Positions 33,060 through 59,889 of a DNA stretch of 64,000 nucleotides are shown here, in pieces. The stretch is from Methanocorpusculum parvum. GTDB lineage: Archaea > Halobacteriota > Methanomicrobia > Methanomicrobiales > Methanocorpusculaceae. Position 1 is the stretch's first letter. The number at the start of each line of letters is the position of its first letter. A model generated the notes under the pieces. That model saw only the letters and a list, made by a program, of their open reading frames with translations, had not been told where the DNA came from and did no database searches. A program made the translations under genes and the position numbers. The stretch covers positions 1 to 64,000 of the forward strand of contig SUTD01000004.1 in assembly GCA_015063085.1 (NCBI GenBank), given 5' to 3'.

Positions 33060-33122
33060 TTTTACTGAATTTTGTGCTTACCAATCCAACATCATTTTAT
33101 TCCGAGAACGCGATTACTATAT

Positions 33123-33430
33123 GGGACTAGTCCGGGTGGTTTGGCGTCACCTGTAATCTGAAATTGTCAATACGCAGAGGACGAAGTTTGAGGACGGATT
33201 CGGCAGTCCTTTTGAGGCGGCAGGGTTTCCGATGTTGATACCTTGTCCTGCGAGGTCAGCGGATGTCTGTGGTGTATCCGGAGGGATGCATCCTCTCATT
33301 GTCGTGGGCACCGGTTCAGGCCCGGAAGGGAGCAGACCTACTGTGAACGCATGGCGCCCGCAGGGTTGCGGGGCGGAGTCTGGCTCTGTCGAAGAGACTG
33401 GATATGTGTCTTCAACCGATAACATGTCCC
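33123..33430 (+). ncRNA. Signal recognition particle RNA (archaeal 7S)
   Basis: About 308 nt. The universally conserved helix 8 core is present near 33314-33336 (TTCAGGCCCGGAAGGGAGCA), with the GGAA tetraloop. The 5' domain has GGGTGG...TCACC and the UGUAA motif typical of archaeal SRP RNA. The 5' GGGAC can pair with GTCCC at 33426-33430, and TTGTC near 33167 with GATAA near 33417, which sets the ends. A TATA-like element lies just upstream (near 33114-33121). Exact ends are estimates. The two ORFs within it (33147-33527 and 33232-33462) are shadows. Confidence 0.92.
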
Positions 33431-33449
33431 ATTTGATTTTGAGGGTTTT

Positions 33450-34918: not shown

Positions 34919-35067
34919 AGATTTTATCATCGGGAATGTTACTTCCAAAAAAGAAGGTGTAACAGTATCAGGGGTTTGGAAGCGGGTTCGTAATGTGCCA
35001 AAACGCCAGAGCACTGTTAGAGACTCTCGCTCCCGAGGGGTGTTACAAAATATAATTCGATGCGTGG
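34919..35067. other. Intergenic region holding the candidate minus-strand RNA
   Basis: No ORF is convincing here. A minus-strand ORF call covering 34811-35014 overlaps the flavodoxin-like gene and is probably spurious. The candidate RNA is entered separately. Confidence 0.5.
34958..35047 (-). ncRNA. Candidate structured RNA driven by the repeated promoter module
   Basis: On the minus strand, 35047 down to 34958 begins TGTAACA and ends TGTTACA, a perfect 7-bp closing stem. Inside it, GGGAGCG pairs with CGCTTCC (one G-U pair), and smaller helices are possible. A T-rich run (TTCTTTTTT) follows immediately, like a terminator. The minus-strand TATA of the repeat module at 35068-35104 lies at the right distance, about 22-26 bp, to start a transcript at 35047. 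The family is unknown to me, and existence as an RNA is inferred from these four coincident signals. Confidence 0.5.
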
Positions 35068-35233
35068 GTATATAAACCCCTGACCGCGCGGTGCGAAAGT
35101 GCCCACTGCTCTGTTTTTTTATGTGCTGTATTTTGAGTATTTGTGGGTGTGTTTCCTCGTCTATTTGTTCACATTTGGTGATTTTTGAGTTCTATTCTGC
35201 GGTTGTGTTTTTCAAAAACGCACTTTCGCGAAA
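35068..35233 (-). repeat. Repeated promoter module, copy 1 (166 bp)
   Basis: The 37-bp core at 35068-35104 contains a TATA box (TTTATATAC read on the minus strand), a BRE-like GGGG, the palindrome ACCGCGCGGT at 35083-35092, and GCGAAAGTGC at 35092-35101. The inverted partner GCACTTTCGC is at 35220-35229. The 115-bp interior is T-rich. The core is identical in copies at 42149-42185 and 59760-59796. Here the promoter faces the candidate RNA at 34958-35047. Confidence 0.75.
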
Positions 35234-42056: not shown

Positions 42057-42185
42057 TTCGCGAAAGTGCTCAATCTTGTCTGTAATTCGTTTAAATCAAA
42101 ATCAGAAACATCTGATGCCTCTGATTTTTCGAAATTCAAACGGCTTTTGGGCACTTTCGCACCGCGCGGTCAGGGGTTTATATAC
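42057..42185 (+). repeat. Repeated promoter module, copy 2 (upstream of radA)
   Basis: The core 42149-42185 (inverse of the listed core at 35068) contains GCACTTTCGC at 42151-42160, palindrome ACCGCGCGGT at 42161-42170, BRE-like CAGGGG, and TATA box TTTATATAC near 42177-42185, on the radA-coding strand. The partner GCGAAAGTGC is at 42060-42069. The 79-bp interior includes a perfect 9-bp hairpin (AAAATCAGA/TCTGATTTT on the complementary strand). The expected transcription start is near 42210, before radA. Confidence 0.78.
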
Positions 42186-56488: not shown

Positions 56489-58660
56489 TCACTTCATCTC
56501 CTTCACCAGATATGAAAGAAGTGCAGCCGTTCCTGCCTTATCCAGCATCTGATTATTATTTCCGCACTTCGGCGAGTGAATACACGACGGACAGCCTGAC
56601 ACGCAGGAACACCCGGAAACAATTCTGTAAGCAAGTTCGGCAATCTTTGGGAACAGTTCTGCCGCCTTCTCTGCCAAACCAATACCGCCCGCAACCCCGT
56701 CATAGATAAACACCGCAGGGCCTCCGACATCTGCATGGAATGGACTGGAAACCCCGCCTATGTCTGCCCGGTCGGAGAGGACATACAAAGGCATCGCTGC
56801 AATTAACGCGTGCTCTGTACCATGCAGAGCACCGCCCAGATTTTCTGCTGTCAGCGGAGCGTCATCATCTACGGTAATCCAGCAGGCTTTTGTCTGGAAA
56901 GATCGCGGCTCAACAGTAAGCTCCTCTGTTGTTACCACCCGGTCATATTCGAGAACCGAGTACCCGTAGATTTGTGTGGAAACAGAAACATCACCGAAAT
57001 GCACTGATATGTTTCCGTGACGTACCGTTTTTTCCTTCTTGTTGATGGTGATATTCGTCTCAGAAATCGGGCGCGTATGATAGTTATCCGATGTCTTTCT
57101 AACGCGGATTACTGATATCTCCGGCTCAATCTTTTCTACCCGGTATCGTTCTCCCTGATGGAAAATGACAGCGCCTAAATACGCCTCGCGGTACGCCTGC
57201 CCGTCATCCATTGTCTCAAGGGTTGAGTTCCCGAAAACAACAGCCCAGGTTTTTCCAATGTTTCCAAAGATGGTGTGCTCCATCACCGGATTTCCAATGC
57301 CCGAGTAAACAAAACCCCGTGCCGTACTCGTTACGAGTTTTCTCTCCTTTAAGTCGGTAATAATCTCGTCTGCCGCTTCTCCAAAATACTTTCTGTCGCG
57401 CTCTGCTTTGTAGGGAAGCTCTGCTGCCGCACAGAGCAGATGGGATTCTAAAAGATACGGGTTTTCGATTCCAAGGATTGCCTCTTCAGGTTTTGCGGAG
57501 AAGAATGCATCAGGATTGTTTGCATAGTACTGGTCGATAGGATTTTGTCCCGCAACAAAAGTAACAGTCGCCTCCTGTCCTTTTCGTCCGGCGCGTCCTG
57601 CCTGCTGAAATACCGAAATCATTGAGCCCGGATATCCGCTGATAACAACAGAATCCAGGTTTCCGATATCAATTCCAACCTCAAGAGCGTTGGTGCTTAC
57701 AACTCCCGACACTTTGCCCTGCTTTAAGTTCGATTCGATGCGCTTTCGCTCTTCAGGTCTGTATCCTCCCCGGTATGAGGAAATTTGTTCCTTTGAATTC
57801 TCCTCTAAGCAGCGAAGAGCAGTAAGCTCTGCGCCGGTTCGCGACTTCGTAAAGCAGATGGTCTGTTTCCCGTCGCGGATACTCTCCTGCATAATCTCTG
57901 CGGCTGCAGCTGACGCGCTCTTCCCGGGATTCTTATAGATACGAAATGTCCGCTTTGCGCGCGGCGCGCCGTCTGAGGCAATTTCCTGTGCGGGAAGGCC
58001 GGTCAAGGTCTCGGCAAAGCGTTTTGCGTTTCCAAGCGTTGCAGATGATAAAATAAACTGCGGATAGCTGTCATAATAATTACAGATTCTGCGCAGCCGT
58101 CTTATCAGAAGGGCTGTGTTTGAGCCAAACACTCCGCGGTATTTGTGTGCTTCATCAATCACGACAAACGAAAGATTCGCAAAGAAATCTCCCCACTTAG
58201 CCCGCCACGGCAGGATGTGGTGGAGCTCGTACATGTTTGTCAGGATAATCCGTGAACGTGCGCGAATCTTTGCCCGCGCTTCCTGCTTTGTATCTCCGTC
58301 ATATATTGCAGGTTTGGTTTTTGCATTCAGAATCTCATCCATCTCCTGAATAGTCAAAAGCTGGTCGCGGGTAAGTGCCTTTGTCGGATAGATGAATAGA
58401 GCCGTGGCGTCTGGAATCTCCAGGAGTTTTGCAAATACCGGAAGAAGGCAGGAGAGGGTTTTTCCGGAAGCCGTCGGTGTTGTCAGGATAATATTTTCTC
58501 CGCGGCGGACTGCATCGTATGCTTCTGCCTGATGAGTATAGGTTCTGATATTTTTCTGCTTCAGGTATGCCACAAGTGTTTCCGGCACCAGCTCAGCGGG
58601 ATTTTGAAAGACTGCTGTTTTTGCATCTTCCGTTTTTTCGAAGAGGAGGATATCATCCAT
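56489..58660 (-). CDS. DEAD/DEAH-box helicase, MrfA (YprA)-like
   Basis: A 723-aa SF2 helicase with TPTASGKT (motif I), DEAH (motif II), SATLGNAKR (motif III) and RAGRKGQ (motif VI). The C-terminal part carries a DUF1998-like Cys cluster: SGCSCVSGCPSCIHSPKC, as in the MrfA family that removes mitomycin adducts in Bacillus. The ATG at 58660 has GGAG 8 bp upstream, and it overlaps the stop of the exonuclease gene. A role in DNA repair is inferred. Confidence 0.88.
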   Translation of the reverse strand: MDDILLFEKTEDAKTAVFQNPAELVPETLVAYLKQKNIRTYTHQAEAYDAVRRGENIILTTPTASGKTLSCLLPVFAKLLEIPDATALFIYPTKALTRDQLLTIQEMDEILNAKTKPAIYDGDTKQEARAKIRARSRIILTNMYELHHILPWRAKWGDFFANLSFVVIDEAHKYRGVFGSNTALLIRRLRRICNYYDSYPQFILSSATLGNAKRFAETLTGLPAQEIASDGAPRAKRTFRIYKNPGKSASAAAAEIMQESIRDGKQTICFTKSRTGAELTALRCLEENSKEQISSYRGGYRPEERKRIESNLKQGKVSGVVSTNALEVGIDIGNLDSVVISGYPGSMISVFQQAGRAGRKGQEATVTFVAGQNPIDQYYANNPDAFFSAKPEEAILGIENPYLLESHLLCAAAELPYKAERDRKYFGEAADEIITDLKERKLVTSTARGFVYSGIGNPVMEHTIFGNIGKTWAVVFGNSTLETMDDGQAYREAYLGAVIFHQGERYRVEKIEPEISVIRVRKTSDNYHTRPISETNITINKKEKTVRHGNISVHFGDVSVSTQIYGYSVLEYDRVVTTEELTVEPRSFQTKACWITVDDDAPLTAENLGGALHGTEHALIAAMPLYVLSDRADIGGVSSPFHADVGGPAVFIYDGVAGGIGLAEKAAELFPKIAELAYRIVSGCSCVSGCPSCIHSPKCGNNNQMLDKAGTAALLSYLVKEMK

Positions 58661-59588
58661 ACAAAAGCTCCGTTTCATAGTTCAAAAGGCATGTGAGGTT
58701 TGCCACATCAAGGGTGTTGTGCTCAACAACCGGCCGTAAGATTTCGAGGTTTTTTGACCGCAGATAGTTCTGATAATACGCCGGAACCAGATAGCCTGGA
58801 ACATCCTCCACGCGGGAAAATGTCGGGATGTATGCCTCTACGGTTTCTAAGCGGCAGTCGGGAAACTCGTGCCGGAACAGTCTGCGGGTTGGATGCAGAA
58901 GATCGATGTGTACTCCAAACCGTACTTCCCGTTCTCCGTAATATGCGAGACGGTTGTTCAGATACGGGATGTCAAAGCATCTTCCGTTGTAGGAGATAAC
59001 TGCCGAGTGCTTTTTGAAATGTTCTCTGGTAAGCATCAAAGCCGGCAGTTCTTCTTCGATATCGCGCAGGAGATACTGGGTTACTTTGACCGAATCCGCT
59101 TCAATCTCACCAATTCCGAAGAGAATTATCGGGGAATGCGCCATTCCGAGTGTTTCTATATCGAAGTAGAGGTGACTGTTCTCATCTCCCATGAGACCTA
59201 AGAGCAGCGGCTCAGAGTTTCGTCTCAGCTCAGCATAGAGGCTGAGGATTTCTTTGACAGTTCCGTTTTCGAGGATGTCTGAAACATCTTCTGCAGCATT
59301 CCGGAACCGGGTTCTTTTGAGATCATGAACCGTTTGTATCCCGTTTCGTTTCAGCTCTGCCTCCCGGATTTTTCCGATTCCGGCAATGAGGGTTAAATCC
59401 TCTGCAAGACGCAGACGTACCATCTCCTCGTCAACTCCATGACGCGGCATGAGGGGAAAGACTGTCTCCTTTTTCAGACATGTGCCGTCTGCGGTCACCG
59501 CTTCTTCTCCGAAGGAGAATCTCTCAGTGGTTTTTGTATCCTGCATCAGTGATGATGCTGTGACAAATCCGGGATATGCCTCGGTCAT
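58653..59588 (-). CDS. RNase H-fold exonuclease, MrfB (YprB)-like
   Basis: A 311-aa protein with a helix-hairpin-helix-like segment (LTLIAGIGKIREAELKRNGI near 80-100) and a DEDD-type exonuclease domain: YFDIETLGM (first acidic pair), SYNGRCFDIPYLNNRLAY, and EHNTLDVANL. It matches YprB, the partner of the MrfA helicase. ATG 59588 follows a TGA by one base; the frame stays open upstream to 59705, so the start is uncertain. It is coupled to the helicase by an 8-bp overlap. The repeat module promoter at 59760 drives this operon. Confidence 0.82.
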   Translation of the reverse strand: MTEAYPGFVTASSLMQDTKTTERFSFGEEAVTADGTCLKKETVFPLMPRHGVDEEMVRLRLAEDLTLIAGIGKIREAELKRNGIQTVHDLKRTRFRNAAEDVSDILENGTVKEILSLYAELRRNSEPLLLGLMGDENSHLYFDIETLGMAHSPIILFGIGEIEADSVKVTQYLLRDIEEELPALMLTREHFKKHSAVISYNGRCFDIPYLNNRLAYYGEREVRFGVHIDLLHPTRRLFRHEFPDCRLETVEAYIPTFSRVEDVPGYLVPAYYQNYLRSKNLEILRPVVEHNTLDVANLTCLLNYETELLYG

Positions 59589-59589
59589 T

Positions 59590-59739
59590 TCAGCAGACGA
59601 AATAGTTACTGTCGCGGGACGCAGTGAACTCACTGTTGTCTGATGCAAACCAGCAGAGTTTGGATAACTGGTTCTTTCTCTGGATGATGGTGTATCCGGC
59701 TGCACGTTCTGCGATTGAGGTTAATGCGATACTTGTCAT
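59590..59739 (-). CDS. Possible small leader ORF before the MrfB-like gene
   Basis: A 49-codon ORF beginning MTSIALTSIAERAAGYTI, and ending one base before the ATG at 59588 (TGAAATG). Its ATG lies about 21 bp from the module TATA box, so it would be translated leaderless. It may be a leader peptide, a shifted N-terminal part of MrfB, or spurious. Confidence 0.3.
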   Translation of the reverse strand: MTSIALTSIAERAAGYTIIQRKNQLSKLCWFASDNSEFTASRDSNYFVC

Positions 59740-59759: not shown

Positions 59760-59889
59760 GTATATAAACCCCTGACCGCGCGGTGCGAAAGTGCCCCTTC
59801 TCAAAAACATAACGTCGTTAAGATGGAGTTATGCGGGGTTGTTTTCGAAATCAGACTTTTTTGCAGTCGATTTGGGCACTTTCGCGAAA
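59760..59889 (-). repeat. Repeated promoter module, copy 3 (upstream of the MrfB/MrfA genes)
   Basis: The core 59760-59796 is identical to copies 1 and 2 over 37 bp. It contains TATA (read on the minus strand) at 59760-59768, ACCGCGCGGT at 59775-59784 and GCGAAAGTGC at 59785-59794. The inverted partner GCACTTTCGC is at 59876-59885. The interior is 79 bp, exactly as in copy 2, but of different sequence, with possible hairpins (CATAAC/GTTATG; AAATC-GACT/AGTC-GATTT). Confidence 0.78.

Follow-up and report, generated by a model that had tools for sequence, protein, structure and literature searches.

A conserved operator-promoter module ahead of repair genes in Methanocorpusculum: a probable DNA-damage regulon with a candidate Orc1/Cdc6 regulator

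The Module in the Window

The window, meaning the whole 64,000-nucleotide stretch of Methanocorpusculum parvum DNA analysed here, carries radA, a pair of overlapping genes encoding an MrfB-like exonuclease and an MrfA-like helicase, and a candidate small structured RNA, each preceded by the same promoter block (Table 1). A preliminary description of this DNA had claimed three exact 37-bp copies of the block, one directed toward radA, one toward MrfB-MrfA and one toward a candidate RNA, with an inverted copy of part of it upstream of all three. A search for GGGCACTTTCGCACCGCGCGGTCAGGGGTTTATATAC found it at the three positions, facing radA, MrfB-MrfA and a non-coding stretch, and the inverted GCACTTTCGC was located upstream of each. 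In the window modules the proximal operator ends 2 bp before a BRE-like GGGG, and ACTTTC stands 24 bp from TTTAT. In an alternative form a further GCACTTTCGC is repeated directly, 18 bp upstream, for example ahead of a tyrosine integrase gene. Elsewhere in the window, an archaeal SRP RNA (33120-33433, + strand, 166 bits) lies just upstream of a malate/lactate-dehydrogenase-like gene.

Table 1. Genes, promoter elements and candidate RNA associated with the module in the window.
Feature	Position	Strand	Remarks
radA, DNA repair and recombination protein RadA, 329 aa	42237-43226	+	NCBIfam equivalogs TIGR02236/NF003301 above cut-off
radA proximal operator and BRE/TATA	42149-42185	+	GGGCACTTTCGC-ACCGCGCGGT-CA-GGGG-TTTATATAC; orthologous radA promoters in the genus have the same module
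radA distal inverted GCACTTTCGC (TTCGCGAAAGTGC on +)	42060-42069	-	Outer distance to proximal operator 101 bp
MrfB-like exonuclease, RNase_H_2 domain	58653-59705	-	Pfam PF13482, 116 bits; start codon uncertain
MrfA-like helicase (DEAD, Helicase_C, MZB zinc domain)	56489-58678	-	PF09369 MrfA Zn-binding domain, PF00270, PF00271; overlaps MrfB
MrfB-MrfA operon proximal operator and BRE/TATA	59760-59796	-	Module precedes MrfB in 14 genomes of the genus
MrfB-MrfA promoter distal inverted GCACTTTCGC	59876-59885	+	Outer distance 101 bp
Candidate small structured RNA (AUUUUGUAACACCCC...CUCUAACAGUGC...GUUUUGGCAC...)	34971-35051	-	Homologs and covariation
Candidate-RNA proximal operator and BRE/TATA	35068-35104	-	Exact copy of the 37-bp block
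Candidate-RNA promoter distal inverted GCACTTTCGC	35220-35229	+	Outer distance 137 bp

The module occurs far above chance expectation. With at most one mismatch, the palindrome ACCGCGCGGT gave 7 matches against 1.2 expected, a count reached in none of 100 shuffles. The whole assembly (1.40 Mb in 36 contigs, about 80% complete) holds 7 copies of ACCGCGCGGTCAGGGGTTTATATA at up to 3 mismatches, compared with 0 for the reversed control, and 17 exact copies of GCACTTTCGC, compared with 1 for the control.

Conservation and Target Genes in the Genus

At up to 3 mismatches, ACCGCGCGGTNNGGGGTTTATA is present in 23 of 25 genomes of the genus, including all 12 good ones, with no more than 15 copies in each; a stricter, longer form of the module was absent from the searched genomes of other genera. 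On comparative grounds the module is a predicted genus-wide regulatory promoter. The preliminary description had proposed that related genomes be searched and downstream genes listed, and repair genes do recur behind the module across the genus. Among the sites read with their flanking DNA in 17 genomes, the gene behind it is MrfB in 14 genomes, RadA in 13, a radical SAM protein in 10 and RPA (PRK07217 replication factor A) in 5. Inspection of orthologs placed the module, at times in degenerate form, ahead of radA in 20/20 loci and ahead of RPA in 18/18. The radical SAM target scores 208 bits against TIGR03916, below the cut-off of 343.5, and can therefore be called only related to that family, as a putative repair-type, TIGR03916-like protein. 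Targets of a mobile type comprise an integrase, RhuM, RHH proteins, and an HTH protein with a C5 methyltransferase; CorA and Sel1-repeat proteins are targets without explanation. That some sites face CorA, Sel1-repeat, RHH or unknown genes argues against taking the gene set as a DNA-damage regulon.

The left arm of the operator is near-uniform over the sites within one genome and differs from clade to clade, reading GCACTTTCGC in clade A, to which the window belongs, GCATTATCGC in clade B, GCACTTTCAG/C in clade C and GCACTTCCGC in genome G022. Such parallel drift at all sites would be expected from one diffusible, site-specific factor. In clade B, ACTTTC is replaced by ATTATC and ANTTTC is no longer matched. 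In clade A, 26 of 32 sites have 99-101 bp between the outer ends of the distal and proximal operators, and four have 134-137 bp; the 35-bp gap between the two classes corresponds to about 3.3 helical turns, which gives no clean phase. The clade-A spacer is 66% A+T (window 51%) with little sequence in common, and the interiors between the inverted repeats have a mean identity of 0.38 (26 spacers). Downstream of TATA lies a conserved YGA-type start region. At the clade-A RPA promoter (two loci), extra direct copies of GCACTTTCGC recur in 86-bp steps within an 86-bp repeat (GGCACTTTCGC..CAGGCACAGCCGCA...).

Some modules retain ACCGCGCGGTNNGGGG-TATA behind another left arm, which is AGGACTGGCG at five clade-A loci and CACCCCGCC or similar at four clade-B loci. 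These modules, often found ahead of peptide leaders or RhuM, perhaps serve a second regulator acting on the same core.

The Candidate RNA and the Peptide Leaders

The third module had been described as facing a candidate RNA, and a conserved structured RNA backed by covariation does lie there. Three further clade-A species have homologs downstream of this module, and in three clade-C species homologs occur there in pairs. The predicted structure has 11 pairs, with 94.5% of cells paired compared with 34-44% for slid positions; this percentage is biased in its favour, the structure having been predicted from the same alignment, and the related sequences number only ten. There were 22 two-sided changes (0/500 shuffles), and the covariation can be regarded as good, if not final, evidence for the RNA. 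A comparison with Rfam matched no family.

Nine repeated leaders also lie behind the module, about 75 bp past the point where the operator starts. They contain GGAGGTGAT or a close relative and then a conserved frame, which encodes about 30 hydrophobic residues with an end like ISREIRAWYLILTKK and is followed by a hairpin and a T run. The frames, mostly without a standard start codon, look like candidate small membrane peptides under damage control, comparable to TisB.

A Looser Operator Beyond the Genus

Across the order the operator takes a looser form, CACTTTCRC and a GC-rich part followed by TATA, which precedes radA, RPA, MrfB, SbcD, a Rad3-like helicase, a radical SAM gene and Cdd1. A search of 11 complete genomes of the order with TCACTTTCACNCYGCRCGG gave matches in all 11, compared with 1 match for the control. 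When the targets of the approximately 60 matches were counted by coordinates and protein identity, they included radA (8), Orc1/Cdc6 (7), RPA (5), a 136-aa family (4), radical SAM (3), MrfB (3), and one each of SbcD, the Rad3-like helicase, Cdd1 and an integrase.

The clearest test was at radA itself, where a sense ACTTTC within 150 bp was found at 26 of 29 loci in the order outside the genus (shuffles: mean 1.0, maximum 5) and at 20 of 24 from other classes (mean 1.0, maximum 4). It was also found in 69 of 80 named haloarchaeal genomes, always 55 to 58 bp upstream of the start codon; these 80 loci, which exclude Halobacterium itself, were fetched with a haloarchaeal RadA sequence as query. 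Antisense ACTTTC was found at none of the radA promoters in the order (29), other classes (24) or haloarchaea (80). A search with the haloarchaeal 12-mer TTTCACTTTCAC returned radA, top6B and Orc genes. Outside the genus the palindrome ACCGCGCGGT is degraded to CCYGCRCGG, and haloarchaea have GTTAAC instead; on this comparison it is a local elaboration and not part of the ancestral core. The earlier proposal of a shared regulator site before repair genes holds in the genus, in the order and, for radA, in the phylum, with more repair genes added, and the site is probably linked to DNA damage.

Relation to Known Systems

In Halobacterium sp. NRC-1, TTTCACTTTCA was reported in 2008 upstream of the UV-B-induced genes radA1, top6B, vng17 and vng280, and likewise ahead of radA in further haloarchaea and in Methanospirillum hungatei; its authors proposed it as the target of a regulator then unidentified (PMC2556686). 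An earlier study found radA1 and the RPA operon to be UV-induced and stated that archaea lack a LexA system (PMC1224876). UV-induced promoters of Sulfolobales depend on A(N)TTTC, located upstream of BRE at -44 to -39, and the motif reads ACTTTC in upsE (PMC5817253). Orc1-2 of Sulfolobales binds ANTTTC in its own promoter and in other damage promoters (PMC9738581). The suggestion in the preliminary description that the motif may be undescribed therefore does not stand, as its core TTTCACTTTCA was published in 2008 (PMC2556686) and ACTTTC also fits the Sulfolobales ANTTTC (PMC5817253). A literature search covering mainly papers outside subscription journals found no publication joining the haloarchaeal motif and the Sulfolobales Orc1-2 system.

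Like the haloarchaeal UV-B motif, the methanogen element has an ACTTTC core on the same strand, upstream of TATA and before radA. The window has ACTTTCG in the sense orientation 24 bp before the radA TATA, and the spacing of ACTTTC to TTTAT in one haloarchaeal radA promoter is 25 bp. However, the full 11-mer TTTCACTTTCA with its internal TTTCA repeat was not found, the window having GGGCACTTTCGC and the order as a whole TTCACTTTCAC with a partial repeat; in the window ACTTTCGC lacks a preceding TTTC repeat and is followed by ACCGCGCGGT and GGGG, whereas the haloarchaeal motif has GTTAACGAGGG. Methanogen sites also differ in often having a distal inverted copy, and their targets RPA, MrfBA, radical SAM, SbcD, Orc1/Cdc6 and the RNA fall outside the four genes listed for the haloarchaeal motif. 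By this comparison, the methanogen element is best regarded as a derived form of the haloarchaeal UV-response element.

With the damage-response element (DDRE) of Sulfolobales and Orc1-2, the methanogen element shares a non-palindromic ANTTTC upstream of BRE, in the same orientation and at damage-response genes; it reads ACTTTC in clade A, clade C and other families, with ATTATC of clade B as the exception. Both also occur on promoters of Orc1/Cdc6 paralogs, the present element in other Methanomicrobiales and in haloarchaea but not on the Orc2 gene of the window's genus. In contrast, the methanogen ACTTTC lies about 12 bp, or about one helical turn, further from the predicted TATA, and the operator is longer, with a GC-rich second part. 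The Sulfolobales element targets ups, ced and tfb3, whereas the methanogen targets are recombination and other repair genes, and here Orc binding is a candidate property. Because the match between ACTTTC and ANTTTC spans six bases, it could be a coincidence. The system also resembles bacterial SOS/LexA: recombinase, SSB, repair and mobile-element genes share one operator, and in some species the candidate regulator family has copies of it as well, but here the core promoter is archaeal and the operator core non-palindromic.

The Operator on Orc1/Cdc6 Genes

In nearly every searched genome of the order, an initiator Orc1 scoring about 450 bits against TIGR02928 is accompanied by a second Orc at about 200-270 bits. 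The operator lies ahead of ten Orc1/Cdc6 paralog genes in two classes, eight in Methanomicrobiales and two in haloarchaea. In the former, spread over five genomes, it is 46-76 bp upstream of the gene, and in a tree all eight proteins group with Orc2, on long branches and apart from Orc1-1 (100/100). One haloarchaeal genome has TTTCACTTTCAC ahead of an Orc with 49% identity to the Orc2 group, and another has it ahead of a more distant Orc. As orc genes are numerous in haloarchaea, two Orcs among 30 haloarchaeal sites amount to a modest link. All 30 initiator orc1-1 promoters lack the operator, and it is also absent from the promoter of Orc2, the only non-initiator Orc, in the window's genus, so that the operator on Orc promoters, suggestive of autoregulation, is seen in other families only. 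The genes found behind the element include none of LexA type. The wH wing of Orc2 parallels the operator arm in different clades; phylogeny also explains this parallel, and it was therefore kept out of the argument.

Proposed Mechanism and Alternatives

An Orc1/Cdc6-controlled DNA-damage regulon, with the block as its operator and core promoter, would best explain what was observed, namely a conserved element of fixed geometry, the set of genes behind it and its occurrence on Orc1/Cdc6 genes; we favour this reading with moderate confidence. Taken by themselves, the gene set very probably represents a DNA-damage regulon, and control of the operator by an Orc-family protein appears somewhat better than an even bet. 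A sequence-specific factor would recognise CACTTTCRC and the adjoining GC-rich part (ACCGCGCGGT here), directly upstream of BRE/TATA, and on DNA damage would activate, or stop blocking, transcription of radA, RPA, MrfB-MrfA, the TIGR03916-like radical SAM protein, the RNA and a number of genes of mobile elements; that damage induces them in this organism is a prediction. The likeliest factor would be a non-initiator Orc1/Cdc6 protein of the 'Orc2' subfamily, acting as an ATP-dependent activator that aids TFB/TBP binding, a role proposed by analogy with the supposed role of Orc1-2 in Sulfolobales. As the operator lies 2 bp from GGGG, a bound protein would adjoin TFB. ATP-dependent activation after damage seems likelier than repression. 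At most sites of clade A, the second inverted operator about 100 bp away could let two Orc molecules cooperate across the AT-rich spacer, and we conjecture that two molecules probably do act jointly at paired inverted operators; the paired sites of clade A recall paired origin boxes flanking AT-rich DNA.

Several features would also be compatible with the same DNA-damage regulon under an unrelated winged-helix or HTH repressor or activator, with the Orc1/Cdc6 genes as mere targets restraining replication during repair. We consider this unlikely, if the most serious competitor. An operator of at least 19 bp with a palindromic part would suit a dimeric HTH protein, and Orc genes of the window's genus lack the operator; however, the operator core is non-palindromic and matches the known Orc1-2 site. 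Sta1 has been discussed for Sulfolobus and is absent from Halobacterium (PMC2556686). The recurrent operator targets include no other transcription-factor gene in the species examined.

RPA, radA and Orc1/Cdc6 all function at forks, and their presence among the operator targets would agree with a replication or cell-cycle regulon in which S-phase genes are switched on jointly. This seems distinctly improbable given the 30 initiator orc1-1 promoters, none of which has the operator; MrfB-MrfA, SbcD, radical SAM, Rad3-like helicase, integrase and methyltransferase targets suit damage better, and the Halobacterium genes with the core are UV-B induced (PMC2556686). There is very little probability that the promoter was carried and spread by mobile elements as MITE-like inverted repeats. 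Although GCGAAAGTGC...GCACTTTCGC resemble inverted terminal repeats and several copies lie ahead of integrase, RhuM, methyltransferase and repeated leader sequences, an insertion-element origin is largely refuted by the unrelated spacer interiors, whose low mean identity is given above, and by core targets that are orthologous repair genes throughout the order, with operator drift parallel at all sites of a clade.

With an Orc1/Cdc6-controlled damage regulon as the preferred reading, what is new is the size of the regulon, its local elaboration by the palindrome and by an inverted copy some 100 bp away, the RNA and the regulator candidate; the core is already known. The operator on orc genes points to a specific protein family for the motif reported in 2008 without a regulator, and an Orc link, if true, would unite two damage responses thought separate. 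More tentatively, and with rather less than even confidence, one ACTTTC-based, Orc1/Cdc6-controlled damage response could be common to methanogens, haloarchaea and Sulfolobales by descent from an early archaeal ancestor, initiators having become damage activators once. The Methanocorpusculum-type module, with its paired inverted sites, structured RNA and possibly SOS-type small membrane peptides, would then be one derived form.

Further Protein Families Behind the Operator

For archaeal repair studies, the analysis supplies a target list of RPA, MrfBA, the radical SAM protein, the RNA and the 136-aa family. Four genomes of the order have members of this last family, of about that length (MEKAGYLQ...ELHILG.RYAIRRSDLIRAV), downstream of the operator, and those tested had no Pfam or NCBIfam match. 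Haloarchaeal matches to the long 19-mer were followed by long false frames, as found in GC-rich genomes, and were re-read from the ATG at fixed distance, which gave small conserved proteins. In several haloarchaeal genomes, TTTCACTTTCAC is followed at about 56 bp by the start of a small protein of 57-66 aa (VDVTE...VHLERRGGRTYLV), possibly related to the UV-B-induced vng17 or vng280. RecA-like ATPase fragments that form one family (..RVARAFTAHQHHALVRQL.. / ..EVARAFTSHQLLTLLEN..) follow the core in one haloarchaeon and in the distant family f9.
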